A stretch of 64,000 nt of DNA from assembly GCA_910575585.1 (NCBI GenBank), contig CAJTGF010000004.1, positions 1-64,000 on the forward strand, in the 5' to 3' direction. This DNA comes from Clostridiaceae bacterium (lineage in GTDB: Bacteria > Bacillota > Clostridia > Lachnospirales > Lachnospiraceae). The notes under the pieces were generated by a model. It saw nothing but the letters and a program-made list of their open reading frames with translations. It searched no databases and was not told where the DNA came from. The position numbers were made by a program, and so were the translations under genes. Positions 36,594 to 56,420 of this stretch are shown piece after piece (the stretch's first letter is position 1; the number at the start of each line of letters is the position of its first letter).

Positions 36594-37035
36594 GCTGATT
36601 TAGGACAGGCAGCGAACCCCTTTCCGCTGTTCTGTCCCCGGCAGAACCTTTCCAGCACCTTGACAAAGAAAGCGGCGCAAGATAACGGCGGCGCAGCATA
36701 GGGCAGATCGGATACGTCCCTTTTGCGCCGAGCCATACGGCGGGTGCGCCATGACACTATCCCGGCGGGGTTTTCTTTCCCTGCCGGGACAGCCGAGCGA
36801 CCAACACCGCGCCGGGGAGCAAGTTTAGCAGCTTGCGGGCGACGACAGCGCAGAATATATAATGATACTCCCTTACCGCCACAGTCCGAGCGTTCAAAGC
36901 GTCGCAGGCAATGGGTAAGGCTGCATGAGAACCATGCAGGGGTGAAACTCCCGTGAGGTTACGCTATTAACCGTCCGATCACAGCCCCTTTTTCACCATT
37001 AACCTTTTACCCATTTTGAAAGGGGGATTTATAGA
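36594..37035 (+). other. structured non-coding leader ahead of xis
   Basis: About 440 bases with no credible gene. A GC-rich stem CCCGGC/GCCGGG (36763-36788) is followed later by an AT-rich TATAAT (36858-36863). Near the 3' end are two tight stems, CTGCATG/CATGCAG (36922-36940) and GGGG-TGAAA-CTCCC. The arrangement resembles an RNA leader or attenuator controlling xis-int. No known RNA family recognised. Confidence 0.4.
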
Positions 37036-42182: not shown

Positions 42183-42457
42183 TAGAGATCCGTTTCTTCT
42201 TCAGATGCAAAATAGGCGCGTTAAATATCAAAAAGTTCTTCAGATTGCAGGGCCAGGATAAGTGCGCCCTCAAAATGGCAACTGCCTAAAAAATGGTGGA
42301 ATATCTATCTGCTATACGCAGCAAAAACCATCTAAAATCAACATTTCTGAAAATTAACAGCAATATATTCAGTTTTCAAAGTTCCTATCACCAAAAGGAT
42401 AAAACACAAATATCCTTTTGACTCCCTAACCCGGATAAACCGGAACTTTAAATTCGT
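42183..42457 (+). other. intergenic, no gene seen
   Basis: AT-rich sequence between the permease fragment and the hairpin element. It holds short inverted pairs such as AAAAGGATA (42393-42401) with TATCCTTTT (42411-42419). Nothing else supported. Confidence 0.4.
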
Positions 42458-42750
42458 TATGTTGCTGTATTGTTGAGTGAGCAATGGGGCCGATTTAGTC
42501 GTGAAGCCAGTCAGAGAAGGAGAGATGTCCCGTCCGGGTTCAGATATGCCAAACATTCCGATGAGCCCAAAACGGAAATCAGTCGGGATTAGGCCCTCCT
42601 GCTTTCCTGGTCTCATCTCCATGGCATATATTCACCCTGCCGGGACATCTCTCCTCTGACTGGCCCCACGACAATCCCCGCCCATTTGCCCACTCAACAA
42701 TCCAACAATTCCATTATTTTGCCATTTTGCGCAAGAAATCGTTCTTAAGG
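42458..42750 (+). repeat. long hairpin element, copy 1
   Basis: Outer arms 42469-42506 and 42664-42703 pair imperfectly (GTTGAGTG.../...CACTCAAC). An inner stem 42507-42532 pairs with 42641-42663 over 23 bp with a 3-nt bulge. A 108-nt loop (42533-42640) has nested pairs ATATGCC/GGCATAT and GATGAG/CTCATC. The loop is conserved in the copy at 55787-56040, but the stem sequence there is different and still fully paired. No protein is credible. Confidence 0.75.
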
Positions 42751-42776
42751 GTCTAATCATATCATAAAGTTATTTG

Positions 42777-42800
42777 AAAACACGCTCTAGAGCGTGTTTT
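42777..42800 (-). terminator. palindromic terminator of the radical-SAM gene
   Basis: AAAACACGCTCTAGAGCGTGTTTT is a perfect 24-bp palindrome just past the gene stop, ending in T on either strand. Confidence 0.6.
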
Positions 42801-42802
42801 AG

Positions 42803-43786
42803 TCAGACGCCTTCCAGATCAAAAGGAGGCGTATATTCTTCTTTCGCGCTGGTTTTTTCCTGCATATATCCATCTGTCAAGCCAAGTCCAATGGCATGAT
42901 CCAACACTTTTTCATATTCATAGGTTGTGATTTTGCGGTTCAGGTCCGGGTAGCTGCCAGTGTCTTTTACCAGGTGGCAGGGGGTGTACTGGCTTAAAAG
43001 GCTTAGGCGGTAATGGCCCTGGGGCAGGGTGTCTTTTATCCATTCAAGGAGTTTGAAGGAGTCCTCCTTTTGGCTGGGGAGGACCATGTGGCGAATAATG
43101 ACGCCGGATTGCAGGATCCCGTTGTTGTCCATTACCGGGGGGCCGGACTGGCTTACCATTTGGGCGATGGCCCGGGAGGCGAAGGAAAAGTAATCCTTTG
43201 CCCCAGAGCAGCGGGCAGCCAGAGGGGAGCTGTAGTATTTTAGATCGGGAAGCCAGATGTCCACATAGGGTTTTAAGGCTTTGACGATCTCCGGCCTCTC
43301 ATAACCGCCGCAGTTGTAGACTACCGGTATGGTCAAATGAGGGCGGACCAGCCGGAGGGCGGCGGTTACGGAGGGCAGGTAGTGGGTTGCGGTGACCAGG
43401 TTGATGTTGTGGGCCCCCTGGTCCTCAAGGTCAAGGAAGATGGCCGCAAGCCTTTGGACGCTTACTTCTTTGCCAAATCTTTGGTGGCTGATCACATGGT
43501 TTTGGCAGAAGCAGCAGCCCAGGGCGCATCCGCTGAAAAATACGGTCCCGCTGCCGCGGCATCCGCTGATGCAGGGTTCCTCCCAGTGGTGAAGGGCAGC
43601 TCTGGCTATTTTAACGTTTGCTCCGCTTTGGCAGAATCCGGCATAGGGACCGGAGCCGGTGGGGGAGGACTTGTCCGGATAGCCGGCCGAAATGCGCGTC
43701 CGGTCAGCATGACACTGGCGGGGGCACAGCCGGCAGTCTTTGTAATCATAGGGAAACGGGGAGGCAGCAATGGCTCGTTTTTTCAT
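42803..43786 (-). CDS. radical SAM protein, PflA-like
   Basis: 327 residues, minus strand. The [4Fe-4S]-SAM motif is CALGCCFC (CX3CX2C) in FFSGCALGCCFCQNHVIS, preceded by an N-terminal Cys-rich segment (CRLCPRQCHADR). NLVTATHYLPS and VVYNCGGYERPE fit the PflA-like subgroup. Such proteins are often labelled pyruvate formate-lyase activating-like, but no glycyl-radical enzyme is nearby, so the substrate is unknown. Divergent from azlCD. Confidence 0.87.
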   Translation of the reverse strand: MKKRAIAASPFPYDYKDCRLCPRQCHADRTRISAGYPDKSSPTGSGPYAGFCQSGANVKIARAALHHWEEPCISGCRGSGTVFFSGCALGCCFCQNHVISHQRFGKEVSVQRLAAIFLDLEDQGAHNINLVTATHYLPSVTAALRLVRPHLTIPVVYNCGGYERPEIVKALKPYVDIWLPDLKYYSSPLAARCSGAKDYFSFASRAIAQMVSQSGPPVMDNNGILQSGVIIRHMVLPSQKEDSFKLLEWIKDTLPQGHYRLSLLSQYTPCHLVKDTGSYPDLNRKITTYEYEKVLDHAIGLGLTDGYMQEKTSAKEEYTPPFDLEGV

Positions 43787-43808
43787 CTGCTTTTTACCTT
43801 CACTTTCA

Positions 43809-43837
43809 TTGACAAATCATGGGGAAAGGAATAAAAT
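43809..43837 (+). promoter_or_regulatory. promoter of azlCD
   Basis: TTGACA (43809-43814), 17-bp spacer, TAAAAT (43832-43837). Confidence 0.75.
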
Positions 43838-43892
43838 ACTGATACTATTATAAACACGACAAAGAAAAAAGCAAGAAGGGGAAACAGAGATT

Positions 43893-44621
43893 ATGAGAAA
43901 GAAAGCCGCTCTTGCCCTGGGCTATGCATTTCCCAAGACGATCCCTGTAATGGTGGGGTATCTGTTTCTTGGGACGGCATACGGGATTTTGATGAAGGTG
44001 AACGGATACGGGATTTTCTGGGCATTGGCCATGAGCCTGTTTGTGTATGCAGGAAGCCTGCAATATATGGGGGTGACCCTTTTGACGGCTGCGGTAAGCC
44101 CGATATACGCGTTTTTCATGGGGCTGATGATAAATGCCCGCCATCTTTTTTACGGAATCTCCATGCTGGGAACGTACCGGGATCTGAAACGGTTTAAGCC
44201 GTACCTGATCTTTGCCCTTACGGATGAAACGTTTTCTGTTCTGTGCAGCGAGAATGTGCCAAGGGCTATTGAACGGGAGTGGGTGTATCTGTGGGTGTCG
44301 GTTCTCGACCAGTGTTACTGGGTTTTGGGAAGTATCCTGGGAAGCGTTTTGGGCGGTATGATCGTCTTTGATACCAAGGGGCTGGATTTTGCGCTGACGG
44401 CGCTGTTTGTAGTGATCTTTACAGACCAGTGGAAGAGCCGCAGGGATCACAGGCCGGCGCTGGTGGGAGTGGCCAGCTCCGTGGCATGTGTCATAGTTTT
44501 CGGCGCCCAGGCGTTTATCATTCCTGCCATGGTGGTGATCTTGGCGGTGTTAAGCCTGTGGTATCGGAGATGGGAAAACGGATCGAGAAAGAACGGGAAG
44601 GAGGCTGGGAAGAATGGATAG
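43893..44621 (+). CDS. azlC: AzlC-family branched-chain amino acid exporter subunit
   Basis: 242 residues from ATG 43893. Seven or more hydrophobic segments, with the family block FVYAGSLQYMGVTLL and INARHLFYGISML. AzlC and AzlD together export branched-chain amino acids or analogues. The stop overlaps azlD by 8 nt. The charged C-terminal tail is cytoplasmic. Confidence 0.9.
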   Translation: MRKKAALALGYAFPKTIPVMVGYLFLGTAYGILMKVNGYGIFWALAMSLFVYAGSLQYMGVTLLTAAVSPIYAFFMGLMINARHLFYGISMLGTYRDLKRFKPYLIFALTDETFSVLCSENVPRAIEREWVYLWVSVLDQCYWVLGSILGSVLGGMIVFDTKGLDFALTALFVVIFTDQWKSRRDHRPALVGVASSVACVIVFGAQAFIIPAMVVILAVLSLWYRRWENGSRKNGKEAGKNG

Positions 44622-44958
44622 CGTGACGGCCGGTATGGGCAATGGAGCATGGATCGTGGCTGCGCTGGCCGGGGCAACGTTGATCACCCGGTTTCTGCCC
44701 TTTCTTTTGTTTCCGGCGGGCAGGGAGATCCCTAAGTATGTAGAGTATCTGGGGAAGACACTTCCCTATGCCACCATCGGACTTTTGGTGGTGTACTGTC
44801 TGAAAGATGTCCAGGTGTCGGGGGCATTCCATGGGCTGCCGGAGATGATCGCGGTGTCGGTTACTGTGGGGCTTCACTGGTGGAAGGGGAATTCCCTGTT
44901 CAGCATTGGCGTGGGCACAGTGGTGTACATGGTGCTGGTGCAGAGGGTATTTGTGTAG
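44614..44958 (+). CDS. azlD: AzlD-family transporter subunit
   Basis: 114 residues from ATG 44614 (AAGGAGG at 44598-44604). Four membrane segments and TLITRFLPFLLFPAGREIPKYVEYLGKTLPYATIGLLVVYCL, the AzlD signature. Small partner of AzlC in one operon. Confidence 0.9.
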   Translation: MDSVTAGMGNGAWIVAALAGATLITRFLPFLLFPAGREIPKYVEYLGKTLPYATIGLLVVYCLKDVQVSGAFHGLPEMIAVSVTVGLHWWKGNSLFSIGVGTVVYMVLVQRVFV

Positions 44959-44994
44959 AAAAGGGGCTGTGTTTTGGGAAACACAGCCCCTTTT
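44959..44994 (+). terminator. terminator of azlCD
   Basis: AAAAGGGGCTGTGTTT (44959-44974) and AAACACAGCCCCTTTT (44979-44994): a perfect 16-bp stem, usable in both directions. Confidence 0.92.
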
Positions 44995-45034
44995 CTGCAG
45001 ATTTTGAAAGCTTTGCACTGACGGCAATGCCTGG

Positions 45035-45211
45035 TTACTTAAACGCTTCCGGGTCCTTGGATGCGGCGGGAGTCAGATAGGGAAAGATCTCCTCGTAGGC
45101 TTCCAGTTCGTCATCGGTTTCGGGAAGGGCGGGGATCAGTCCGGTACACTCCATGGCGCAGGCTGCCGGGTTGTCCAGGTAATCGTCCTTGTCTTCGTTA
45201 TAGATCGTCAT
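45035..45211 (-). CDS. small conserved protein of unknown function (58 aa)
   Basis: 58 residues, minus strand; the ATG at 45211 is favoured over a GTG at 45220 by spacing to GAGG. The sequence MTIYNEDKDDYLDNPAACAMECTGLIPALPETDDELEAYEEIFPYL is very acidic. I believe similar short proteins occur in Lachnospiraceae, but no function is known. Confidence 0.6.
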   Translation of the reverse strand: MTIYNEDKDDYLDNPAACAMECTGLIPALPETDDELEAYEEIFPYLTPAASKDPEAFK

Positions 45212-45582
45212 TTTTATCACCTCATCATTAGTATGGGCTTAGCAAAAGAAAGTATGTATGGTTTTAAAAATTTTTGTGCATATGTGGGAAAATCAGCCGC
45301 AAATTGTGACGCGCGTCTGTCAGAAAGCAATTTTCAAACACGATCTAGTAGAAGGCGCCCAATGGCAGCGTACCAGGCCAGACATCGCCGGAGACGATTT
45401 GGAATGGCGGACAGGGTTACCGTTTGCTGGGATCAGTAAGCAAAAAAGCATTTTAGTCTATATGGAGAACACATGAAATTATGTTTTTTTCCGCATTCCC
45501 CATGATATAATGCAGATACATGAAGGGGATGCGAAAGGATGCAGACTCCGGGGAATACATTAATGAGGTGGAGGAAAAGAAG
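45212..45582 (+). other. intergenic region upstream of the sugar-binding lipoprotein gene
   Basis: Contains ATTTTCAAACACGATCTAG (45330-45348), a variant of the motif at 39128 and 42774, then a GC-richer stretch (45350-45440) with no supported gene, and an extended -10 TGATATAAT (45503-45511) that may start the next gene. Confidence 0.4.
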
Positions 45583-46872
45583 ATGAATCAGAAAAGATGG
45601 TTATCAGCGATGTTGGCGGGGACTATGGCGTTTTCACTGACAGCCTGCGGAGGAGGCGGTCAAAGTGGGAACGGGGACAGCAGTAAGGATTCCAGTAATT
45701 CTCTCACCGTTGCCATCTGGGACAACAACCAGCTTCCGGGGCTGAAAGAGATCATGGGGGACTTTACGGCTCAGAGCGGGATCAATGTGGAGATTCAGGT
45801 GGTTCCGTGGGATCAGTACTGGACTCTTCTGGAGGCGGGGGCCCAGGGCGGCGAACTGCCGGACGTGTTTTGGATGCACTCTAATTACAGCCAGAAATTT
45901 ATGAGCAATGACATTTTGCTGGATCTGACAGACCGGATTGCCCAGAGCGAAACCATTGACATGGGCAATTATTATGAGGATATTGCAGGATTGTACCAGC
46001 TGGATCAGAAGACTTATGCCATTCCCAAGGATTATGACACCATTGGGCTCTGGTACAACAAGACCATGTTTGACGAGGCGGGCATTGCCTATCCGGATGA
46101 AAGCTGGACCTGGGAGACCTTTGCCGAGGCGGCAGAGAAGCTGACCAAGGAGGATGGCAGCCAGTACGGTTTTACCTCACCGGCCAGTTTTAACCAGGAC
46201 GGATACTACAACCTTATCTACAGCATGGGCGGTTCCGTGTTAAGCGAGGACAAGACCCAGTCTAATTGGGATTCTCCGGAGACAGTCAAGGCCATGAACT
46301 GGTGGTACGACAATCTGGTGGCAAAGGCCATGCCTACCCAGCAGGTGATGGCGGAGAATACGCCGGATGTTATGCTTGGGTCCGGCAAGGCGGCCATGGT
46401 CTTTCAGGGCTCCTGGATGGTGGCTGCTATGAAAGGAAATGAGTACATTGTGGAAAACTGTGATGTGGCAGTGCTTCCAAAGTCTGATGCAGGAAAACGG
46501 ATTTCCATTTACAACGGCCTTGGATGGGCGGCATCAGCCAAAAGTTCCAATGCGGAGGGCGCATGGAAGCTTCTGGAATATCTGGGAGGCGAGGATGCCC
46601 AGAAAAAACAGGCTCAGCTGGGAGTGACCATGTCGGCGTTCATGGGTACTTCCGATACCTGGGTAGAGTGTGCGCCGGAGTTTAACCTTCAGGCATATCT
46701 GGATATGGCCCAGGACATGGTGATCCGTCCCTACACCAGAAATACCAAAGCCTGGGAGGATTATTCCCAGGAGACTATGGTGAAAGCCTACACAGGGGAT
46801 ATGACCATGGAGGCGGTGTGCAGTGACATTGCCGCGTATATGAACGAGCAGATCGCGGATGAGCAGAGATAA
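45583..46872 (+). CDS. sugar ABC transporter substrate-binding lipoprotein (family 1)
   Basis: 429 residues from ATG 45583. Lipobox FSLTAC, followed by a family 1 solute-binding fold: NVEIQVVPWDQYWTLLEAGAQGGELPDVFWMH, DYDTIGLWYNKTMFDEAG and MVFQGSWMV. It would deliver a sugar or oligosaccharide to membrane permeases. No permease or ATPase genes adjoin it; the converging AraC-type gene could control it. A strong terminator follows. Confidence 0.88.
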   Translation: MNQKRWLSAMLAGTMAFSLTACGGGGQSGNGDSSKDSSNSLTVAIWDNNQLPGLKEIMGDFTAQSGINVEIQVVPWDQYWTLLEAGAQGGELPDVFWMHSNYSQKFMSNDILLDLTDRIAQSETIDMGNYYEDIAGLYQLDQKTYAIPKDYDTIGLWYNKTMFDEAGIAYPDESWTWETFAEAAEKLTKEDGSQYGFTSPASFNQDGYYNLIYSMGGSVLSEDKTQSNWDSPETVKAMNWWYDNLVAKAMPTQQVMAENTPDVMLGSGKAAMVFQGSWMVAAMKGNEYIVENCDVAVLPKSDAGKRISIYNGLGWAASAKSSNAEGAWKLLEYLGGEDAQKKQAQLGVTMSAFMGTSDTWVECAPEFNLQAYLDMAQDMVIRPYTRNTKAWEDYSQETMVKAYTGDMTMEAVCSDIAAYMNEQIADEQR

Positions 46873-46901
46873 AGGGATTTAAATCCCTGTCGTTAGGAAT
46901 G

Positions 46902-46962
46902 GCCGTTTCCCGCCAGGACGGAACAAGGTATGGACAGGTTCCGGGCGGGAGACGGCTTTTTT
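46902..46962. terminator. terminator between the convergent SBP and AraC genes
   Basis: GCCGTTTCCCGCC (46902-46914) pairs with GGCGGGAGACGGC (46944-46956), one mismatch, followed by T6. Confidence 0.85.
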
Positions 46963-46972
46963 GGCGCCGGGA

Positions 46973-47896
46973 TCAGCTTTTTGAGGATAAGGGCAGTGCA
47001 TTCTGGGTTACTATGTGCTGCCGGTAATTCTTAGGGCTGAGGCCGTAGGCATTTTTGAACATTTTGGAAAATGTCAGAGGATTATCATAGCCGATATGGG
47101 ATGCCACCTCCTGGATGGACAGGTCCGTGGTGCGCAGCAGACGGCTTCCCTGGTCCAGGCGGTAGGAGAGAAGATATTCCTGGGGGGAAATGCTAAGCTT
47201 TTGCTTGAAAATATGGGTCAAATAGGAGCGGGTGATGCCGATGTAGGAGGCAATGTCGCTGATGCGGGCATTGCGGTAATTGGTGTGGATGTATTCTACC
47301 GCGTGGTTTACATAGATATCCGGGGAGTAGTCAAGGGGGCGGGGCTTGTGCTGCTGTTCCAGGTTCTGGTTCCTGGAATTGACGAGCAGGGCCAGGATTT
47401 CATACAGCAGGGCGGTGCGGGTCAGTTCGTTGGCAATGACCAGTTCGTGGTGGTTAAGGATTTTTTCGGTGAGAGCTAAAAACTCCTCCGGTTCCACATA
47501 AGCATCCCGGACAGGGCAGGCGGAAGTAAAGCCTGCTTTTTCCATATAATAGGCGGCTTTGCTGCCGCCGAAGGATACCCAGGTATAGTGCCAGGGATCT
47601 TTGGGATCTGCATAGTAGTAAGTCTCGATATCCGGGGGAATGGCGAAGATCTGTCCCCGCCCCAGGCGGTAGGATTGACCGTTTATCTCCAGGGTTCCTT
47701 TGCCGGACAGGATGAAATGGACGTGGAAATCATCCCGGATAACGGGGCCGTATGATTTGTCCGGAGGACAGTGTTCAATGCCGCAGACGGTGAGGAACAG
47801 TTCGGCATGCTCAATAGGGGAGCTGCCCAGCCAGCGGAAGGTGGCGCCGACCCGGTAGTTTGGCTGGGGGGACAAATAATCAGTGGTGGGAGACAT
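46973..47896 (-). CDS. AraC-family regulator with cupin sensor
   Basis: 307 residues, minus strand, start at 47896 (AAAGGAGG upstream); the longer frame to 47986 has no ribosome-binding site. N-terminal arabinose-binding cupin (FHVHFILSGKGTLEINGQSYRLGRGQIFAIPPDIETYY), C-terminal double HTH (ISDIASYIGITRSYLTHIFKQKLSISPQEYLLSYRL; IQEVASHIGYDNPLTFSKMFKNAYGLSPKNYR). Senses a sugar and probably controls transport or catabolic genes, perhaps the convergent SBP. Confidence 0.9.
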   Translation of the reverse strand: MSPTTDYLSPQPNYRVGATFRWLGSSPIEHAELFLTVCGIEHCPPDKSYGPVIRDDFHVHFILSGKGTLEINGQSYRLGRGQIFAIPPDIETYYYADPKDPWHYTWVSFGGSKAAYYMEKAGFTSACPVRDAYVEPEEFLALTEKILNHHELVIANELTRTALLYEILALLVNSRNQNLEQQHKPRPLDYSPDIYVNHAVEYIHTNYRNARISDIASYIGITRSYLTHIFKQKLSISPQEYLLSYRLDQGSRLLRTTDLSIQEVASHIGYDNPLTFSKMFKNAYGLSPKNYRQHIVTQNALPLSSKS

Positions 47897-47919
47897 GGGA
47901 GTTCCTCCTTTGGGATATG

Positions 47920-48070
47920 ATGCACTCTCGGAATCTCGCCTGCGCCTGCCTTGGTGACAGATTGGCTGATTTTCCGTCATATGCATATAAATTTAATCAA
48001 CGTATGTTCCACGTGTGCCTCATAAATTGATACCTTGTGGCGCAGAGTGCCGCCGCTCCGTAGGAGCATG
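47920..48070 (+). repeat. MITE-like element, degraded copy
   Basis: Left end ATGCACTCTCGGA and about 60 central bases (ATTTTCCGTCATATGCATAT... to CCTCATAAATT) match the 40868-41030 element almost exactly. The right end is eroded. It occupies the space between the divergent AraC and SBP genes, so it may affect their promoters. Confidence 0.7.
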
Positions 48071-48147
48071 TATTTTAGATTTATTTTAGCACAGGGCGGG
48101 GGATTTTTCTATTATCTTTTGCAGGAATCGAATTCTTACATGCAGTC

Positions 48148-48177
48148 TGGACAGAACCCTGTAGATGGTGGTATAAT
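48148..48177 (+). promoter_or_regulatory. promoter of the NitT/TauT-like operon
   Basis: TGGACA (48148-48153), 18-bp spacer, TATAAT (48172-48177). The 140-nt leader that follows has inverted pairs (GCAGCCTGTC; CAGGCAGGCCGC) but matches no riboswitch I know. Confidence 0.6.
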
Positions 48178-48319
48178 AAAAAACGCATATCATATCCGCA
48201 GCCTGTCGGTTGGAGATATGGTATCATATACAGGCAGGCCGCAAACCAGGCAGATGGATCTGCGGTCAGTATCACTAACCCGGAAGTATACTTACGGGAA
48301 AGAAAGAGAGGATTTTTAT

Positions 48320-49462
48320 ATGAGAAAAGTATTATCAATGGTTATGGCGTGTGCCATGACCGCGGCTGTGATGGCGGGATGTTCGTCTCCGGCCAGGGAA
48401 AACGCTCCTGAAAGCGTGACGGCTGCTGAGAGTGTCAGCACCGAAACCTCCCAGGAGGAAAAAACGGATGAAAGCCAGGAGAGCTATGGGGCAGAAGACG
48501 GTCAAAACGAGAGCGCGGCAGAGACAGAGGCCGGTGAGCGTGTGGATTTGTCTGGAAATACACCAATTCTGCGCATCGGCTCCCTGAAAGGGCCCACTAC
48601 CATGGGGATGGTGTCACTGATAGATAAAGCCGCCAAGGGGGAGGCGAAAGGTTCCTACGAGTTTACCATGGTCACAGCGGCGGATGAGCTGGTGGGGAAG
48701 ATGGTGTCAGGCGATCTGGATATTGCTCTGGTTCCGGCCAATATGGCAAGTATTTTGTACCAAAAGACAGGACAGGGGATTGAGGTGCTGAATATCAACA
48801 CCCTGGGGGTTTTGTATGTGGTGGCCGGGGATGATTCCCTGAAAACCATTCCGGACCTGAAGGGAAGGACGGTGTACATGACGGGCAAGGGGACCACTCC
48901 GGATCATGTGTTTCAATATCTGCTGTCAGCCAACGGCCTTGGCCAGGAGGATGTGACGGTCGAGTATAAGTCTGAGGCCGCGGAGGTGGCGGCAATCTTG
49001 AAAGAGCAGCCAGATGCCATCGGTCTTCTCCCACAGCCTTTTGTGACGGCTGCCATGGCTCAGAATGAGAATCTTAAGATGGTCATGGATCTGACCAAAG
49101 AGTGGGACAGTCTTCCGATTGAGGAGGGCGGACGGCTGGTAACAGGGGTTACGGTTTGCCGCAAAGAAGTGCTGGAGGATGCTGCCATGAGGGAGAGCGT
49201 AAAGGCATTTATGGAGGAACATAAGGAATCGACAGAATTTGTCAACAACAACGTGGAGCTTGCCGGTAATCTGGTGGCGGAAGCGGGGATTATTGAGAAA
49301 GCGCCGGTTGCCCAGAAGGCCATCCCTTACTGCAGTATCGTGTGTATTGACGGGGAAGAGATGAAGACCATGCTGTCCGGCTACTTGAATGTGCTGTTTG
49401 GGCAGGATGCTTCTTCTGTGGGAGGAAAGCTTCCGGATGACGGGTTTTACTATATTCCGTAG
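48320..49462 (+). CDS. substrate-binding lipoprotein, NitT/TauT (SsuA/THI5-like)
   Basis: 380 residues from ATG 48320. Lipobox AAVMAGC and an acidic Ser/Glu linker (25-75), then a periplasmic-binding fold of the SsuA/ThiY type: LRIGSLKGPTTMGMVSLIDKA, DIALVPANMASILYQ and LKGRTVYMTGKGTTPDHVFQYLL. Substrates of this class include sulfonates, nitrate-like anions and thiamine precursors; which one applies here is unknown. First gene of a complete ABC operon. Confidence 0.87.
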   Translation: MRKVLSMVMACAMTAAVMAGCSSPARENAPESVTAAESVSTETSQEEKTDESQESYGAEDGQNESAAETEAGERVDLSGNTPILRIGSLKGPTTMGMVSLIDKAAKGEAKGSYEFTMVTAADELVGKMVSGDLDIALVPANMASILYQKTGQGIEVLNINTLGVLYVVAGDDSLKTIPDLKGRTVYMTGKGTTPDHVFQYLLSANGLGQEDVTVEYKSEAAEVAAILKEQPDAIGLLPQPFVTAAMAQNENLKMVMDLTKEWDSLPIEEGGRLVTGVTVCRKEVLEDAAMRESVKAFMEEHKESTEFVNNNVELAGNLVAEAGIIEKAPVAQKAIPYCSIVCIDGEEMKTMLSGYLNVLFGQDASSVGGKLPDDGFYYIP

Positions 49463-49513
49463 CTGCGGGTTCCTTTTAAGGCAGAAAGGTATTCATTGCT
49501 CATAGGAGAGTTT

Positions 49514-50287
49514 ATGAAGGAGAACACTGCAAGGTTTGGGCGAAGGCTGTTTGTCATAGGGTTCTGGATACTGGTGTGGCAGCTGGGGGCTCATGCCGTT
49601 GACAATCATATTATTTTGGTGGGGCCGTGGGACACGGTTTTGGCTCTGGGGCGTCTGATTCCCGACTGGGAATTCTGGCGCTCCATCGCTTATTCTTTTG
49701 GGAAGATCACCCTGGGTTTTTTGTCCGGGTTCGGGGCCGGGGTGTTTTTGGGCAGCCTGGGGTACCGATTGACATTTGTGAAAGATCTGCTGAAGCCGGT
49801 TATGGTGCTTTTGAAATCCATTCCCGTGGCTTCATTTGTGATCCTGGCTCTGATCTGGGCAGGGTCTAAGAATCTGTCGGTGCTCATTTCTTTCATCGTG
49901 GTTCTTCCCATGATCTATGTAAATACTTTGGCAGGGCTTGGAAGCACGGACGGGAAGCTTTTGGAGATGGCAAAGGTTTTTCGGATGTCTGCGGTAAGGA
50001 AGATCCGGTATATTTATGTTCCTGCTCTTCTCCCTTACCTGAAAAGCGGGTGCAGGATTGCCCTGGGCATGAGCTGGAAGTCCGGTGTGGCGGCGGAGGT
50101 GATCGGGGTTCCGGATCACTCCATAGGGGAGAAGCTTTATATGGCGAAGATTTATCTGAATACTGCGGATGTTCTGGCCTGGACTCTGGTGATCATCCTG
50201 GTCAGTGCTTTGGTGGAAAGGGCTGTACTGGGGGTTTTGGGCCGTATATCTTTCGGGGGAGGCGCGTATGAGTCTGGTGGTTCGTGA
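49514..50287 (+). CDS. ABC transporter permease, NitT/TauT type
   Basis: 257 residues from ATG 49514 (GGAG at 49505-49508). Six membrane segments and the cytoplasmic coupling motif EMAKVFRMSAVRKIRYIYVPALLPYLKSG. It partners the preceding lipoprotein and following ATPase, with a 20-nt overlap with the latter. Confidence 0.88.
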   Translation: MKENTARFGRRLFVIGFWILVWQLGAHAVDNHIILVGPWDTVLALGRLIPDWEFWRSIAYSFGKITLGFLSGFGAGVFLGSLGYRLTFVKDLLKPVMVLLKSIPVASFVILALIWAGSKNLSVLISFIVVLPMIYVNTLAGLGSTDGKLLEMAKVFRMSAVRKIRYIYVPALLPYLKSGCRIALGMSWKSGVAAEVIGVPDHSIGEKLYMAKIYLNTADVLAWTLVIILVSALVERAVLGVLGRISFGGGAYESGGS

Positions 50288-50849
50288 TCTGAGCAAGGCT
50301 TTTGAGGACCTGCAGGTGCTTCGTGGGGTGGATCTTACCTTTGGGGACAGTGGAATCTACTGTCTTATGGGATCCTCGGGAACAGGAAAGACCACGTTTT
50401 TGCGGATCCTTATGGGGCTTGAGAAGGCAGACTGCGGGGTCATCGAAGGGGTGGAGGGAAAACGGTTCAGTGCGGTTTTTCAGGAGGACAGGCTGTGTGA
50501 GGACCGTACGCCGATGGAGAATGTGATGATGGTGGCAGAGCGGTCCGTAACCAGGGAAGCGGCGCAAAGGGAGTTGTGCCGGATTTTGCCGGAGGAGTCC
50601 ATTTGGCGGCCCGTGTATACCCTAAGCGGCGGCATGAAGCGGCGGACGGCTGTGTGCAGGGCGCTTCTGGCGTCTTTTGATATCCTATTGATGGATGAGC
50701 CTTTTACGGGACTGGATGAAGATACCAGGACACAGGTGATACGGTATGTGCGGGAGAGGACCCAGGGGAAGCTGGTGATCTTGTCCACTCATATGGAGGA
50801 GGATGCGAGAGAGCTGGGGGCAGAGGTGGTGAGGCTGGAGGAAAGGTGA
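50268..50849 (+). CDS. ABC transporter ATPase, NitT/TauT type
   Basis: 193 residues from ATG 50268. Walker A GSSGTGKTT, Q-loop VFQEDRL, signature LSGGM, Walker B ILLMDEPFTGLD and H-loop STHMEED. It is shorter than usual (about 250), lacking a C-terminal extension. Last gene of the operon. Confidence 0.9.
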   Translation: MSLVVRDLSKAFEDLQVLRGVDLTFGDSGIYCLMGSSGTGKTTFLRILMGLEKADCGVIEGVEGKRFSAVFQEDRLCEDRTPMENVMMVAERSVTREAAQRELCRILPEESIWRPVYTLSGGMKRRTAVCRALLASFDILLMDEPFTGLDEDTRTQVIRYVRERTQGKLVILSTHMEEDARELGAEVVRLEER

Positions 50850-50900
50850 TCAGCCCCAAAGGCAGGTGGAAGAGACGGACGTCTGATGGATAGGATGGCA

Positions 50901-50929
50901 ATAAAAAAGTGCTTGGACCAAGCACTTTT
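50901..50929 (-). terminator. terminator of tRNA-Leu
   Basis: AAAAGTGCTT and AAGCACTTTT pair around GGACC (50905-50929); on the minus strand the stem is followed by a T run. Confidence 0.75.
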
Positions 50930-50931
50930 CA

Positions 50932-51011
50932 TGCGGATAACAGGAATCGAACCTGCACGGTCTCCCACCAGAACCTAAATCTGGCGCGTCTGCCAATTCC
51001 GCCATATCCGC
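50932..51011 (-). tRNA. tRNA-Leu (anticodon UAG)
   Basis: On the minus strand the molecule starts GCGGATATGGCGGAATTGG and ends ATCCGCA. The acceptor stem GCGGATA/TATCCGC, the anticodon stem CCAGA-TTTAGGT-TCTGG with TAG, a long variable arm and the GGTTCGATTCC T-arm are all present. CCA is not encoded. It is not disrupted by any element. Confidence 0.95.
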
Positions 51012-51068
51012 AGAGATGAAACTATTGAACATTGTATCAAAGGCAGGGATATTTGTCAATATGGAACC

Positions 51069-52097
51069 TTACACCGTTCTGGTGGACTGTCCCACCACCA
51101 GTTCTCCTTTAAACACTTTCTGCTGATTCTGTGCCTTGTTCCGGATCATATCAAAGAGAAGTTTTGTGGTAGCCAGGGCCATCTCCTCCACCGGCTGGCG
51201 TATGGTAGTAATGGCGGGATTATAGTAGCGGGCGATATCCAGGCCGTCAAACCCGGCGATGGAGTAATCCTGCGGCACGGACTTGCCGGCATCGAACACT
51301 GCTTTGCAGGCGCCGATCGCCACGCTGTCGGACACGGCAAACAGGGCGGTAAGGTCCTGACCGGAGGTCATCACCTTCTGCATCTGACGGTAGCCATTGC
51401 CCATAGTGTAGCACTCGATATCCTCGTCGCTGTAAAAGATCCATCTGGGATCAGGAGTAATGTTGTGGTCCAAAAGAGCTTTTCGGTATCCCATAAGCCG
51501 CAGTTTCCCGATGCTCTCGTCGTCAGGGGTGGCGGCCAGGAAGCCGATTTTTTTGTGGCCCTGGCCGCAGAGGTAGCTGACCATCTTGTAGCTTTCCGCC
51601 ATGTCATCTACCGATATGCTGGAGAACCGGTTTCGGTCCATCTGCTCTGTGGAAGCAATGGTGGACAGAACGAAGGGGATATCCAGTTGTCCCAGCTTTT
51701 TCTGGCTGTGGGAAAAATACCCGCCCAGGAAAATAATGCCCTTAGGCTTTTTCTCTTTTATCACTTCCATGGCCACGTCCACCTCATTTTCCCCGCTGTC
51801 GACCCGGTGCAGAAGGAACGAATACCGATGGTTCTGGATCTCCTCGCCGAAGATCTTGATCATGGCGCTGAAAAACGGATTGTCGATACCTTTGATGAAA
51901 ACCACGATGGTCCTGGAAACCGACCGTTTCAGATTCCTGGCGCTGTTGTTGGGGATATAATTGTGTTCCCGGATAACCTGAAGCACCATATTTTTCGTCT
52001 CCTCGTTAATATCCGGGTGATTGTTGATGGCCCTGGATACGGTGCTGACGCCAACGCCGCATATTTTGGCCACATCTTTGATGGTAATACTGTCCAT
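51069..52097 (-). CDS. LacI-family transcriptional regulator
   Basis: 342 residues, minus strand. N-terminal HTH (MDSITIKDVAKICGVGVSTVSRAINNHPDINEETKNMVLQVI) with the hinge helix, and a C-terminal sugar-binding domain (ending ELVVGQSTRTV). It lies downstream of and co-oriented with the sugar ABC genes, whose promoter region (55.49-55.56 kb) carries palindromic sites fitting a LacI-type repressor. Confidence 0.92.
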   Translation of the reverse strand: MDSITIKDVAKICGVGVSTVSRAINNHPDINEETKNMVLQVIREHNYIPNNSARNLKRSVSRTIVVFIKGIDNPFFSAMIKIFGEEIQNHRYSFLLHRVDSGENEVDVAMEVIKEKKPKGIIFLGGYFSHSQKKLGQLDIPFVLSTIASTEQMDRNRFSSISVDDMAESYKMVSYLCGQGHKKIGFLAATPDDESIGKLRLMGYRKALLDHNITPDPRWIFYSDEDIECYTMGNGYRQMQKVMTSGQDLTALFAVSDSVAIGACKAVFDAGKSVPQDYSIAGFDGLDIARYYNPAITTIRQPVEEMALATTKLLFDMIRNKAQNQQKVFKGELVVGQSTRTV

Positions 52098-52133
52098 GGC
52101 AATGTCCTCTTTTTTGTTTTTGTACAGGCGGGG

Positions 52134-52973
52134 TTACCCTTTCACTGCTCCGGCCACTACACCCTCTATGATGTATTTCTGGCAGAACAGATAGAAAATG
52201 ATGATGGGGATAATGGCAAGGACCAGCACACCCATCATGGCGCCCATGTCGATGGAGCCGTACCCACCCCGGAGATACTGGATGGCAATGGATACGGTCT
52301 TAAACCGCTTCATATCCAGGTTCAGGTAGGGCAGCAGATAGTCGTTCCAAATCCACATGGTCTGGAGAATGGCCACGGTGACGCAGGTGGGCTTCATGAT
52401 AGGGAGCACCACGTCGAAAAAGGTGTGGATAGGGGTGCAGCCGTCGATCATGGCAGCCTCCTCGATCTCCAGGGGGATGGATTTCACAAAGCCGGTGAAC
52501 ATGAACACCGACAATCCGGCCCCGAACCCCAGGTACACGATAATAAGCCCCCAGGGAGTGTTCAGCTTGAGCATGTTCACGATCTTTGACAAGGGGAACA
52601 TGACCATCTGGAAGGGCACGATCATGGAAAACAGGCACAGGTAATAAAAGATGCTTGTAAATGTGTTTTTCACACGCACAATGTACCAGGCACACATGGA
52701 GGTACACAGGATGATGATGAACACAGAGCCGATAGTGATGAACAAGGTCCAGCCAAAGGCTTCAAAGAACCCGGTCTTTTCGATGCCGTTAATATAGTTT
52801 TCCAGACCCACAAACATTTTATCCGTGGGGATGGCAAATGGCCTGCGGCTGATATATGCTTTCTTCTTAAAAGAGTTTAAGACCACCAGGGCGATGGGGC
52901 AGAGCCACAGTATGGAAAGCAGGGAGAAAAAAATGGTCATGGCTGTATTTTGTGCTGCGTTCTTTTTACCCAT
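52134..52973 (-). CDS. sugar ABC permease (MalG-like)
   Basis: 279 residues, minus strand. Six membrane segments, with the EAA-type loop EEAAMIDGCTPIHTFFDVVLPIMKP (about 188-212). Its ATG shares one base with the stop of the MalF-like gene, so the two are co-translated. It forms the channel with that partner. No ATPase gene in the operon; a shared MsmX-type ATPase encoded elsewhere is likely (inference). Confidence 0.9.
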   Translation of the reverse strand: MGKKNAAQNTAMTIFFSLLSILWLCPIALVVLNSFKKKAYISRRPFAIPTDKMFVGLENYINGIEKTGFFEAFGWTLFITIGSVFIIILCTSMCAWYIVRVKNTFTSIFYYLCLFSMIVPFQMVMFPLSKIVNMLKLNTPWGLIIVYLGFGAGLSVFMFTGFVKSIPLEIEEAAMIDGCTPIHTFFDVVLPIMKPTCVTVAILQTMWIWNDYLLPYLNLDMKRFKTVSIAIQYLRGGYGSIDMGAMMGVLVLAIIPIIIFYLFCQKYIIEGVVAGAVKG

Positions 52974-53815
52974 TACTGTTCGATCTCCTTTCTTCTGGTG
53001 AGGACATTCTGCGTCACGGCGATAATGCCCACAAGGATGAAAAATACCACGGCTTTGGCCTGGCCTACGCCCTCCCAGCCGGCCCGGCCGTAGAAGGTGG
53101 AAAAGATGTTCAGAGCCAGAAGTTCCGACATGTTGGACGGCTCTCCGTTGGTCAGAGCCAGGTTTTGGTCAAACAGCTTGAAACTGTTGGTCAAGGTCAG
53201 GAAGGTGCAGATGGTAATGGAAGGCATGACCATGGGCAGAGTTACATTTTTAAGGATCTGCCAGTTGGTGGCTCCGTCAATCTTGGCCGCCTCCACCAAA
53301 TCTCCGGGGACGTTCTGGATCCCGGCGATATAGATGATCATCATATAGCCGATCTGCTGCCAGCACATGAGGATGACCAGGCCCCAAAAACCATACACAG
53401 AGGAATGGGTCAGGGTGCGTTCCACCTGTAAAAGGATGCCGTTTAAGAGCAGGCTCCACACATAGCCCAGGATAATGCCGCCGATCAGGTTAGGCATGAA
53501 AAATACGGTGCGGAACAGGTTGGTGCCCTTGATCTTTCTGGTTAAAAGGAGGGCAATGGCAAACGCGAAAAAGTTGATGAAAACCACGCTGACAATGGTA
53601 AACAGGGAGGTGTACCACAGCGCATGGACAAATGTGCCGTCTGTGAGGATCTTGGCGTAATTGCTAAAGCCGATAAATGTAGCATCGTTGATGGTGGTAA
53701 ACTTGCAGAATGACAGCCACACGCCTACCAGAAACGGAGCGATGAACCCCATAGTAAAAGCCAGGAGGGTAGGCAGGACGAAAAGGGGAAAGTACCGTTT
53801 GATTGCTTTGTCCAT
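52973..53815 (-). CDS. sugar ABC permease (MalF-like)
   Basis: 280 residues, minus strand, start at 53815 (GGAAGGAAG-type site); the longer frame to 53929 lacks one. Six membrane segments and the EAA loop VEAAKIDGATNWQILKNVTLPMVMP. Middle gene of SBP-MalF-MalG. Confidence 0.9.
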   Translation of the reverse strand: MDKAIKRYFPLFVLPTLLAFTMGFIAPFLVGVWLSFCKFTTINDATFIGFSNYAKILTDGTFVHALWYTSLFTIVSVVFINFFAFAIALLLTRKIKGTNLFRTVFFMPNLIGGIILGYVWSLLLNGILLQVERTLTHSSVYGFWGLVILMCWQQIGYMMIIYIAGIQNVPGDLVEAAKIDGATNWQILKNVTLPMVMPSITICTFLTLTNSFKLFDQNLALTNGEPSNMSELLALNIFSTFYGRAGWEGVGQAKAVVFFILVGIIAVTQNVLTRRKEIEQ

Positions 53816-53952
53816 AGATTTTTCTTCCTTTCCAGGGATGATGTAAACAATTACTGCAATGGGGCAGATGCTGTGCATCTGCCCCATAAGTTTTGATAAG
53901 GAGACGCATTGATTTATATTAAGCGTCATGCGCCGAAAGCCGGAATTCCCTT

Positions 53953-55356
53953 TTAGTTGTTGGCTGCCTGGTACTCTGCCGCCCAGCCGTCCACAAATGC
54001 GGTAACAACCGAATCCCAGCTGCCAGTACCCTGGGCATACTCAAGCATGGCGCTTCCAAGCTGATTCTTCCACTCCTCAGAAGGCATGGTGGTGAAGTTC
54101 CATGTCACGGAAACCGTGCCGTTCTTTACATACTCGTCTGCCGCAGCTACCAACGGGTTGGCAGGCAGGTACTCTTCGGTGAAGGTGGAGAAGGGCGTTA
54201 CGAAGCCCATTTCCTTGGCAAGCCCATTCTTTCCGGCGTCGCTCTCCACAACCCACTGGAGGAAATCAAGAGTGGCCTGGATGTTGGCCTCGGAGGCCTT
54301 GCTGTTGACACACCAGTAGTTTTCGGAACCGGTACACAGGCCCTGGTTGGCCTCTTTATCAGCGCCGATGAAGATGGGGAGCATACCAAGATCTTCGTCC
54401 GCAACCTCGTTGTCCTTGATGTCATTGTAAGCCCATGTCCCGTTCTGATAGAAGACAGCCTCTCCAAGGGCAAATTCGGAAGCAGCGTCCTCGCCGGTCT
54501 TGCCTGACAGCAGAGTGGGAGCGCAGGTGGAGTCGGTGATATACAGGTCAAAAATCTGTTTGAAGTTGTCAAGGTAGGTTCCTTTTACCGCGTCTGTGGA
54601 GGTGATGCCGTCTGCCAGATACTCATAGTACAGAGGCAGGTTGGCAAGATGAGTCTTGAACCTCCAGTCGGAGGATGCGTCAAAGCCAGCGGAAGTAAAT
54701 GCTCCGGCTATGCCCAAGTCGTCTTTTTTAGCCTGGATGTCGTCGGCAACTGCCTTTAAGGTGGCGAAATCCTTGATGTCGTCAGCGGAGGTGATCACTG
54801 CACCGTCCATGGCAATGTAGTCGTTTAACAGTTTCTTATTGTAGATCAGGCCGTAAGTCTCGATCACGTAAGCGATGCCTTTTACGGAGCCGTCGTCGAT
54901 GAGGGCAAAGTCATCGCTGGACAGGTCTTTATACACAGCGGAATCCTTTAAGTCGTAGCAGTAATCTTTCCAGGAAGCCAGGCCCACAGGGCCGTTGACC
55001 TGGAACAGGGTGGGAGCTTCGGTCTTAGCCATCTCGGATTTCAGGGTCTGCTCGTAGGTTCCGGAAGCTGCGGTCACCACGGTTACGGGAACGCCGGTTT
55101 CTTTGGTGTAAGCCTCTGCTAAGGCTACCCACTGGTCTGCCTGCTCAGGCTTAAAGTTCAGATAGTACACCGCGCCTTCGCCGGAGGATGGGGAGGCGGG
55201 AGCGCTGCTGCCGCCTGCAGTGGTTTCAGCGCCTGAATCTGCCGCAGAAGTGGAGTCTGCGTTCTGGTCTGCGGAACCTCCGCCGCATCCGGCCAGAGTA
55301 CCCAATGCCAGGGCTGATGTCAGCCATAAAGCTATCATTTTCTTTGTTTTCTTCAT
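53953..55356 (-). CDS. sugar ABC transporter substrate-binding lipoprotein
   Basis: 467 residues, minus strand. Lipobox LGTLAGC, Ser/Ala-rich linker, then a family 1 solute-binding fold (VPVTVVTAASGTYEQTLKSEMAKTEAPTLFQVNGPVGLASWKDY; GLIYNKKLLNDY; LGEAVFYQNGTWAYNDI). First gene of the operon with its own promoter/operator. Sugar specificity cannot be read from sequence. Confidence 0.9.
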   Translation of the reverse strand: MKKTKKMIALWLTSALALGTLAGCGGGSADQNADSTSAADSGAETTAGGSSAPASPSSGEGAVYYLNFKPEQADQWVALAEAYTKETGVPVTVVTAASGTYEQTLKSEMAKTEAPTLFQVNGPVGLASWKDYCYDLKDSAVYKDLSSDDFALIDDGSVKGIAYVIETYGLIYNKKLLNDYIAMDGAVITSADDIKDFATLKAVADDIQAKKDDLGIAGAFTSAGFDASSDWRFKTHLANLPLYYEYLADGITSTDAVKGTYLDNFKQIFDLYITDSTCAPTLLSGKTGEDAASEFALGEAVFYQNGTWAYNDIKDNEVADEDLGMLPIFIGADKEANQGLCTGSENYWCVNSKASEANIQATLDFLQWVVESDAGKNGLAKEMGFVTPFSTFTEEYLPANPLVAAADEYVKNGTVSVTWNFTTMPSEEWKNQLGSAMLEYAQGTGSWDSVVTAFVDGWAAEYQAANN

Positions 55357-55489
55357 AATGAATCCTTCCCTTCTTTAAAAATATGATTTGCCAGGTTGCG
55401 CAAGCAGGATTCGGTGCGCAAAACGTCTGTGGTCAAAACAGGAATCGAAGATTGGAGTTTTGAGCTGGAGATCTGTTTGGAACCGAACC

Positions 55490-55557
55490 CGGTAACGATA
55501 TCGGTAACGTTACCAATCTTGTGGTTTTAATATAGCACATTGACGGTGAGTATGCAA
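55490..55557 (-). promoter_or_regulatory. promoter and LacI-type operator of the sugar ABC operon
   Basis: On the minus strand, TTGCAT (55557-55552), 17-bp spacer, TATATT (55534-55529). Downstream, over the start region, lies the perfect palindrome GGTAACGTTACC (55503-55514), and a second CGGTAACG half (55490-55497) lies 12 bp away. This placement fits repression by the LacI-type protein encoded at 51069-52097. Confidence 0.75.
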
Positions 55558-55786
55558 GAGAAAAAAATTTGAAATTGCGTTTTTGGTGAAGTTGTATGGA
55601 TTTTGGAGAAGAATTTAGATGTTTTTCACAACGAGTTATTTGAGTGAGGAAGAAAGATGTTATGGGAAGTGGCTATGGCCACAAATCCGGATGAAAAAAG
55701 ATGGCTTAAAGATCATGGGGGTGAGCTTGTGACTTATGATGATCTGTGATCAGGAAGCAGGAGATAAGTTATGGGACTGTTTAAAC
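55558..55786 (+). other. intergenic with a possible small remnant frame
   Basis: A short plus-strand frame (from about 55659) reads MLWEVAMATNPDEKRWLKDH and ends near 55749. It looks like a gene fragment but has no recognised source. Nothing else supported. Confidence 0.3.
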
Positions 55787-56040
55787 CCTTAAGAACGATA
55801 TCTTGCACAAAATGGCAAAATAATGGAATTGCTGTATTGTTGAGTGAGCAATGGGCGGGGATTGTCGTGAGGCCAGGGCGGGAAGGGTGGGATGGTACCG
55901 TCCGGGTTCAGATATGCCAAACATTCCGATGAGCCCTTAAAGCAGAAAACACTCGGGGTGAGGCCCTCCTGTTTTCCTGGTCTCATCTCCATGGCATAGA
56001 TTCACCCTGCCGGTACCATCCCACCCTTCCCGCCCTGGCA
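55787..56040 (+). repeat. long hairpin element, copy 2
   Basis: Left outer part begins CCCTTAAGAACGATATCTTG, the reverse complement of the right outer end of copy 1. The inner stem is a perfect 28-bp pairing (55873-55900 with 56011-56038), GC-rich and unlike copy 1 except at its ends. The 110-nt loop (55901-56010) is largely identical to that of copy 1, including the nested ATGCC/GGCAT and GATGAG/CTCATC pairs. Confidence 0.75.
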
Positions 56041-56352
56041 AAAGCAGATATTCGCTGGCCGGGATTTGCCCGCTTAAGGTGTTTCCGACAGGGACGCTGT
56101 TTCAACGTTGTGGCGGAAAGATATCTGTTTTTTAAGGTGGTTTCGATAGGGAACGCTGTTTCGACTCTGTAGTGAAAAGATAACTGCTTTGTCTGCAGTG
56201 ACAGGTTGTGCATAACATTTATGGGAACCAATCCTGCTTCTATATTTTTTGTGTGAGTCAATGACTGTCTTGGCTGCCATATTTTTAATTGCCCATATAA
56301 AACAAGCGTTTATTGGTGTATACCCCAAGGGCATACCAGAATGGAAATCTCT
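56041..56352 (+). repeat. insert with a tandem repeat inside the hairpin element
   Basis: Two adjacent imperfect 58-59 bp units (56074-56131 and 56132-56190) each begin TTAAGGTG and contain ACGCTGTTTC and AAAGATA. The remaining bases to 56352 show no gene. The block separates copy 2 from the partial arm at 56353. Confidence 0.6.
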
Positions 56353-56420
56353 TCTCTGACTGGCCTCACGACAATCCCCGCCCATTGCTCACTCAACAAT
56401 CCAGCAACATAACAAATCTC
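56353..56420 (+). repeat. hairpin element, partial copy (right outer arm)
   Basis: TCTGACTGGCCTCACGACAA and on to CACTCAACAATCCAGCAACA is the right arm of a type-1 element: its complement matches the left arm of copy 2 outside the stem and the stem foot of copy 1. Confidence 0.65.

Follow-up and report, generated by a model that had tools for sequence, protein, structure and literature searches.

A high-copy family of mobile DNA units in Hungatella with a shared hairpin head and differing, self-complementary stems

The first 64,000 nt of contig CAJTGF010000004.1 (assembly GCA_910575585.1, a Clostridiaceae bacterium placed in the Lachnospiraceae), which we refer to as the window, contain two hairpin elements, at 42430–42752 and 55785–56413. 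Their hairpins share a conserved head and have stems of unrelated sequence, and they belong to a high-copy family carried by mobile DNA units. A unit is described here by two distinct ends (A and B), two outer arms (T and T') and one or two hairpins, each made up of a conserved head and a two-armed stem. The parts of the two window elements are the following.

42430–42752, minus strand: element 1, in single-hairpin collapsed form, with the B end on the left and the A end on the right; shared end motifs
42426–42429 and 42753–42756: CTAA (TTAG on the A-to-B strand) on both sides of element 1
42430–42460, minus strand: B end of element 1, reading outward ...CCGGTTTATCCGGG
42462–42505, plus strand: left outer (T) arm of element 1, inverted repeat I1
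42506–42531, plus strand: 5' stem arm of hairpin 1, type a2, 26 nt
42532–42641, plus strand: conserved head of hairpin 1; its identity to head 2 is 91%, and the genome holds 166 copies
42642–42664, plus strand: 3' stem arm of hairpin 1, type a, 23 nt, with a 3-nt bulge relative to the 5' arm
42665–42708, plus strand: right outer (T') arm of element 1, inverted repeat
42709–42752, minus strand: A end of element 1, reading inward on the minus strand ACCCTTAAGAACGATTTCTTGCGC
55785–56413, plus strand: element 2, with an A-end match at 55785 (2 mismatches) and a right limit uncertain by a few bases
55829–55871, plus strand: left outer (T) arm of element 2, inverted repeat I1
55872–55899, plus strand: 5' stem arm of hairpin 2, type b, 28 nt
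55900–56011, plus strand: conserved head of hairpin 2, placed by alignment and covariance model
56012–56039, plus strand: 3' stem arm of hairpin 2, with 28 of 28 positions paired
56351–56407, minus strand: outer arm at the far side of element 2, made up of T' and a portion of an a-class stem arm, 91% complementary to 55829–55885

A covariance model of the hairpin scores 168 bits on hairpin 1 (42506–42664) and 179 bits on hairpin 2 (55877–56034), and the fold of element 1 lies at z = -9.9 relative to dinucleotide shuffles. A first-pass annotation of the window had reported that the loops of the two copies are largely identical, that their stems differ and that the outer arms are common to both, and we find the same: 99 of 109 alignment columns are equal between the heads, the stem sequences are unrelated, and the outer arms recur as inverted repeats of 58 nt (78% complementary) in element 1 and 57 nt (91%) in element 2. 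Its description of both stems as fully paired stands for copy 2, in which 28 nt pair without a mismatch, and not for copy 1, which has the 3-nt bulge near its base and is a collapsed chimera with a 5' arm of type a2 and a 3' arm of type a. The segment at 56353–56420, taken there for a third partial arm, is not a separate element and is instead the far outer arm of copy 2, whose second head is gone. Element 2 thus runs from its A end through the T arm, the type b hairpin, the centre, the remnant of a second hairpin (an a-class arm) and the T' arm to a truncated B end, and its left flank is TTAA instead of TTAG. Adjoining element 1, at 42777–42800, is a perfect 24-bp palindrome, AAAACACGCTCTAGAGCGTGTTTT, whose half-sites recur five times in the window and L162–L201 taken together.

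The window genome is Hungatella-like (6.13 Mb in 253 contigs). It holds 166 copies of the head at up to 3 mismatches, compared with none for a reversed control pattern, as well as 115 outer-arm motifs at up to 2 mismatches and 46 matches to each of the ends A and B; the loci examined in detail are part of the 166 head copies. Read from one side to the other, the full unit consists of end A, arm T, a first hairpin, the centre, a second hairpin in inverted orientation, arm T' and end B. Collapse to a single or fused hairpin is seen at L058, L089, L092 and L103, as in window copy 1, and a unit of about 60 bp in genome G003 (L204) is hardly more than A plus B. Hairpins are about 110–400 nt long overall, of which the conserved head makes up about 90 nt; representative hairpins measure 112–168 nt and are longer in genome G148, and the stem foot in the aligned hairpins is GCC/GGC. 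An exact 22-base head pattern, searched in 84,980 species genomes, occurs in 25 stretches, every one from a Hungatella metagenome-assembled genome, and it is on this basis that the window genome is called Hungatella-like. The A end is present in 6 of 26 genomes of Hungatella. We found no description of this hairpin family in the open-licence literature searched, a narrower body of work than print as a whole.

Stem arms match their own partners and, between types, little else. Across 114 distinct hairpins the 5' arm scored against its own 3' arm has a median of 0.92 of 1, while arms of differing stem types match at background (median 0.28) and the heads are 0.89 identical. The first-pass claim that pairing is preserved despite replacement of the sequence is therefore borne out by these hairpins, and by those of other genera described below, in which covariation greatly exceeds that of the shuffled and slid controls. 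In an alignment of 34 of the 42 representative hairpins (A1), 96.2% of 1949 cells are paired, double changes occur at 31 of 61 pairs, and double-change cells number 234 against 9 one-sided ones. None of 500 shuffles is as high in paired cells or in double changes, and sliding the partner by 1–3 columns leaves 40–49% of cells paired; these controls consist of shuffles and slid structures and leave the tree of the copies outside the model. Further pair types are no higher than in shuffles, 279 of 500 of which reach the observed value. Types a and a2 differ by a 3-nt indel that appears in mirror form in each of the two arms. The stems had also been called exchanged, and this needs qualifying, as there is no free exchange: the Hungatella loci contain about a dozen stem types, some of them in tens of copies. 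Hypermutation of stems is ruled out in the window genome, where same-type stems are nearly identical in many copies, and a purine-rich 5' arm (68% in Hungatella, 37–60% in other genera) was dropped as a family trait.

The exceptions to pairing bear on the level at which the structure is kept. RNA pairing under selection would be expected to tolerate G·U but not A·C. The stem exceptions comprise 5 G·T and 9 A·C among 113 hairpins from Hungatella, and 13 G·T and 8 A·C among 16 from other genera, 18 versus 17 in total; other mismatches number 45 and 9 in the two sets. This count excludes L025, L127, L031, L082, L030, L113, L156 and weak arm alignments, which lowers the mismatch counts. The acceptor stems of 22 distinct tRNAs, used as a control with an offset picked to maximise standard pairs and thus favouring few mismatches, give 14 G·T and no A·C. 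The equal frequency of G·T and A·C in the hairpins is in line with a structure maintained as DNA, or with homogenisation of the arms by copying. The first-pass annotation had offered selection for the fold or copying of one arm from the other; in view of the 234 double against 9 one-sided changes, the mirrored indel and the similar numbers of G·T and A·C, copying fits better than selection acting through stepwise compensatory point mutation.

Unequal stems are also the rule within a unit. Among 39 two-hairpin units at Hungatella loci, counted where the heads lie 250–1050 bp apart, the left and right stems are unrelated (score below 0.5) in 38, and the remaining one, L074, combines types a2 and a (0.64). 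When stems are dealt at random, the mean is 11.5 similar pairs and the lowest value in 1000 trials is 3. Of 30 units 26 can be oriented (4 are unassigned), and their a-class stem neighbours end B in 17 cases and end A in the other 9. The minimum-energy DNA fold of one whole unit, L070, is a four-armed cross, which we rejected as a general fold as it is not the minimum-energy form of L106, L056 or L042.

These units are mobile DNA. In the window genome TTAG adjoins A at 35 of the 44 distinct flanks of that end and B at 41 of 48, in one orientation, with the CTAA orientation at 1 of the 48 B flanks, and the two ends are not inverted repeats of each other. One unit, L090, is nested inside the head of another copy for which a paralogous empty site is known: when its flanks are joined minus one CTAA, 88 of 89 bases are identical to the uninterrupted relative. 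Another Hungatella has two units arranged head to tail at one TTAG, a place that appears in two collections, as L131 and as L035. The orientation of units relative to local GC skew (29 of 46) gives no clear strand bias. Mapping the element ends for target repeats, as had been suggested, thus yields TTAG flanks and a nested insertion with its empty site; given fixed ends, a fixed target and nested insertion, the earlier argument that the elements are unlike a miniature inverted-repeat transposable element (MITE) is not supported.

The hairpins are themselves associated with insertion sequences (IS). IS4/IS231-like elements with the same IS end occupy one repeated head site beside GGTCTCATC in L077, L143, L154 and L159, the transposase of L159 matching DDE_Tnp_1, and a different IS-like end is found at the same site in L182, such that the head looks like an insertion hotspot. 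In L032, L041, L050, L054, L059, L102 and L231 an IS4/IS231-like end, near CAATGTCATTAACTTAAG and often after GTTACTGTTCAC, takes the place of A, and it is possible that these units are mobile insertion cassettes (MICs). We take the IS ends at the hairpin units to be IS231-like.

Searching related Lachnospiraceae with the hairpin and the head, as had been proposed, places the head in eight other sampled genera. In a sample of 150 genomes of the family the hairpin covariance model (R1) has matches in 7, and in a sample of 391 genomes of the class a head-only model (R2) has matches in 3, each belonging to that same family; the window genome is included in both counts. Together the two models reach at least eight other genera, three of them by a single match. 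Stricter filters were applied in both searches, and no more than 19 (R1) and 11 (R2) candidates were scored in any one genome, so that the counts are lower bounds, and genome G022 is counted as a carrier via weak head matches only. The shared head core is CATTnCrATGAGCC ... GTCTCATyTCCATGGC, and the cross-genus head alignment is 95.9% paired, with 138 double-change and 8 one-sided cells. A single model match per locus is seen in 19 of 19 loci from other genera. The hairpins may be mobile there as well.

The stems of these genera do not follow a single pattern. Genome G148 has 15 copies with both arms and 15 different stems, with an own-arm median of 1.0, a between-copy median of 0.22 and arms of about 110–140 bp in the six copies viewed in detail. 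The 7 stems of the 7 G137 copies are all different and pair less well (0.76), and in G445 the stem is variable, with conserved parts on either side of it (own-arm median 0.49 versus 0.20 between copies). The comparison used a fixed 41-nt window that is too long for the stems of G123 and G445, making their own-arm medians of 0.54 and 0.49 underestimates; two of the four G509 loci gave no head, and a contig end truncates L320. Copy-specific stems are therefore real but not universal, since the stem of G123 is shared while those of G148 and G137 differ. One fixed stem with scattered mismatches, the pattern that the first-pass annotation had set against its own reading, is found in G123 and not in the window genome, G148 or G137.

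Because of these patterns we propose, with a probability of roughly 60%, that the hairpins are structural modules of a high-copy, non-coding and non-autonomous mobile DNA, and that their arms are kept paired mainly by template switching. In this model, a unit would insert next to TTAG in a fixed orientation, acted on in trans by a putative enzyme. The head would be the recognised and sequence-constrained part, presumably contacted by a protein, and the stem would be needed only as a paired DNA arm. Replication would copy one arm from the other by template switching within the palindrome so that the arms stay paired, the loss of badly paired copies may act as a second filter, and recombination would share heads between stem types. 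Stem lineages could then drift apart while heads stay alike, because arms would be copied from each other and heads shared by recombination. Of the processes considered, template switching appears to be the best account of the stems. Two equal stems would turn the whole unit into one long near-perfect palindrome, which would tend to be deleted by cells, and a plausible explanation of the unrelated stems in two-hairpin units is that units with equal stems are cleared in this way.

Arm copying is a known process, which here would have acted across a large natural set. In the parts of PMC8794818 that deal with it, template switching is described for RNA genes as creating and keeping perfect stems by arm-to-arm copying with the loop unchanged, and the origin of multi-base compensatory changes is treated there as an open question. 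The present case differs from those hairpins in being a mobile DNA family with arms of up to about 140 bp. More than 100 paired stems with a common head provide a natural series with which arm copying, selection on a DNA fold and palindrome clearance can be separated.

Several observations weigh against this proposal. The own-arm score is below 0.75 in 9 of the 114 hairpins, including the badly paired or chimeric L025, L031, L082 and L127, and the persistence of such hairpins shows that strict pairing is no requirement. Stems of types a and c have stayed stable over tens of copies, so that arm copying alone would be slow at making new stems. L074 is an exception to unequal stems within one unit, and the 38 of 39 units that conform are not 38 independent events because the units of one genome are related. 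In 3 of 4 whole-unit folds (L106, L056 and L042) the heads pair together and separate hairpins are not formed. TTAG is weaker in other Hungatella genomes, where it lies beside A at 3 of 8 flanks and beside B at 7 of 11. Outside Hungatella, some G148 stems are related (closest pair 0.76), and one stem, with mismatches, is common to 11 copies in G123. Finally, neither a moving enzyme nor a transposase linked to the hairpins was found. At 33 hairpin loci of other genera no recurrent transposase-like gene is seen alongside; wider recurrent protein matches there are hairpins read as protein, or common gene families, and a few pairs among the 33 loci share related genes (not classified by domain search). 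One distant search each of plasmids and of phages with 636 bases gave no match, nor did one scan of viral sequences with the head pattern.

Two other readings concern what the hairpins do. The very strong covariation of the stem and head helices is what one would also see if head and stem were transcribed as a structured RNA with its fold under selection, but we consider this very unlikely given that the stems show no preference for G·T over A·C, that the head helices of the cross-genus alignment (A2) contain 8 G-U and 6 A-C cells by hand count, and that the two hairpins of a unit sit on opposite strands. Rfam gives no above-threshold match to the window hairpins, and among 13 loci the sole head-overlapping match is a weak one to TD-2 (E 0.11) on the other strand of L236. 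That the inner module is an invertible DNA switch, as its presence in both orders relative to A and B might suggest (17 and 9 of 26), is harder still to credit, since recombination between the T arms accounts for both orders.

The remaining alternatives concern how the units move. They could be non-autonomous IS200/IS605-like elements, excised as single strands by a Y1 HUH transposase, TnpA, acting in trans, and inserted 3' of TTAG with small end hairpins. The ends that are not inverted repeats and the one tetranucleotide in one orientation, repeated at the right end of the unit, agree with this, as do an intact IS200-type tnpA in the window genome (C33, 149 aa) and three broken tnpA relics beside or between hairpins. 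On the other side stand the lack of clear strand bias relative to GC skew, noted above, and the finding that among 11 Y1 loci A/B-like ends occur only at two of the relics (L120 and L123), in degraded form (8–9 mismatches). Moreover, Y1 transposase has no match in G148, G137, G123 and G445 (96–100% complete), nor in the less complete G016, G024 and G022, and matches in 7 of 14 hairpin-bearing genomes searched versus 11 of 20 not known to carry hairpins; on these results we reject a Y1 transposase, absent from the four near-complete carriers, as the family-wide mover, and we regard the IS200/IS605 reading as unlikely. Rather improbable, and to about the same degree, is that the units are ordinary MITEs of a DDE transposase that diverged into subfamilies, the stem differences marking no more than these, and inherited their pairing from an old palindrome. 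High copy number, fixed ends and a 4-bp direct repeat are in keeping with it, and a few units with IS4/IS231-like ends may move as cassettes of that DDE family; however, A and B not being inverted repeats and TTAG in one orientation are unusual for DDE ends, and inheritance alone keeps no arm match while the stems of sister copies turn unrelated. The loci inspected, which surround part of the 46 A and 46 B matches in a draft assembly that breaks at many copies, show no DDE element with A/B ends.

Two further candidates were dropped. The tnpA relics (L120, L123 and L125), which are broken and IS200-type, share a truncated 3' junction and for that reason look like carried passengers and not an autonomous source. 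Integron attC sites were set aside by eye against their core motifs, there being no matching inverted core at the ends and mostly A/T at the base before TTAG.

Compared with known systems, the family behaves like REPINs or MITEs, yet lacks some of the tested defining features of each. Repetitive extragenic palindromic (REP) sequences, as described in the parts of PMC3733652 that concern them, are 20–40 bp long with 6–13 bp stems, GTAG/CGTC tags and often G-T pairs. These repeats, grouped here with bacterial interspersed mosaic elements (BIMEs), REP doublets forming hairpins (REPINs) and REP-associated tyrosine transposases (RAYTs), are high-copy palindromes in inverted pairs, thought to be moved in trans, with subfamilies that have alternative complementary stem residues, all of which resembles the present family; REP heterodimers with different stems, proposed there as an escape from SbcCD, likewise recall the unequal stems within one Hungatella unit (PMC3733652). 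The 39 two-hairpin units of Hungatella have the same inverted orientation. In contrast to REPs and REPINs, the hairpins here are not 20–40 bp long, as the lengths given above show, there is no GTAG/CGTC tag at the foot (GCC/GGC instead, with TTAG at unit ends only), and no Y1 tyrosine transposase was found in four near-complete carriers. Derivatives of IS200/IS605, the palindrome-associated transposable elements (PATEs), are similar in lacking terminal inverted repeats and, given the IS200/IS605 mechanism, in a fixed tetranucleotide target; the units differ in having no tnpA with matching ends and long inverted repeats nested inside. As a gauge of preference for the lagging-strand template, the orientation counts by local GC skew (29 of 46) give no clear signal. 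Some units of the genus lie between IS4/IS231-like ends in the manner, presumably, of the IS231 MICs of the IS4 family, although most examined units of the window genome bear A/B ends and TTAG. The difference between A and B, and a TTAG that is not orientation-neutral, set the units apart from DDE-type MITEs. The inverted terminal repeat of parvoviruses is a stem with two unequal palindromic arms that occurs in both orders. Any likeness to it would be one of resemblance only, as the present units have no viral gene and the structure is internal to a chromosomal unit.

It may be that the family represents a previously undescribed class of mobile hairpins of the Lachnospiraceae in which a non-Y1 enzyme reads only the head, while a stem private to a lineage or, in some genomes, to a copy is kept by arm copying; we put this forward tentatively, at somewhat under even odds. 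The family points to a DNA-moving enzyme in gut bacteria that may recognise a folded DNA head.

Elsewhere in the window, positions 1047–1129 contain a separate nested hairpin with a weak R1 match on the minus strand (29.4 bits), which by eye does not share the head core. Rfam matches place the end of a group II intron at 18–114 (50.9 bits) and a pemK RNA motif at 36859–36956 (61.7 bits).

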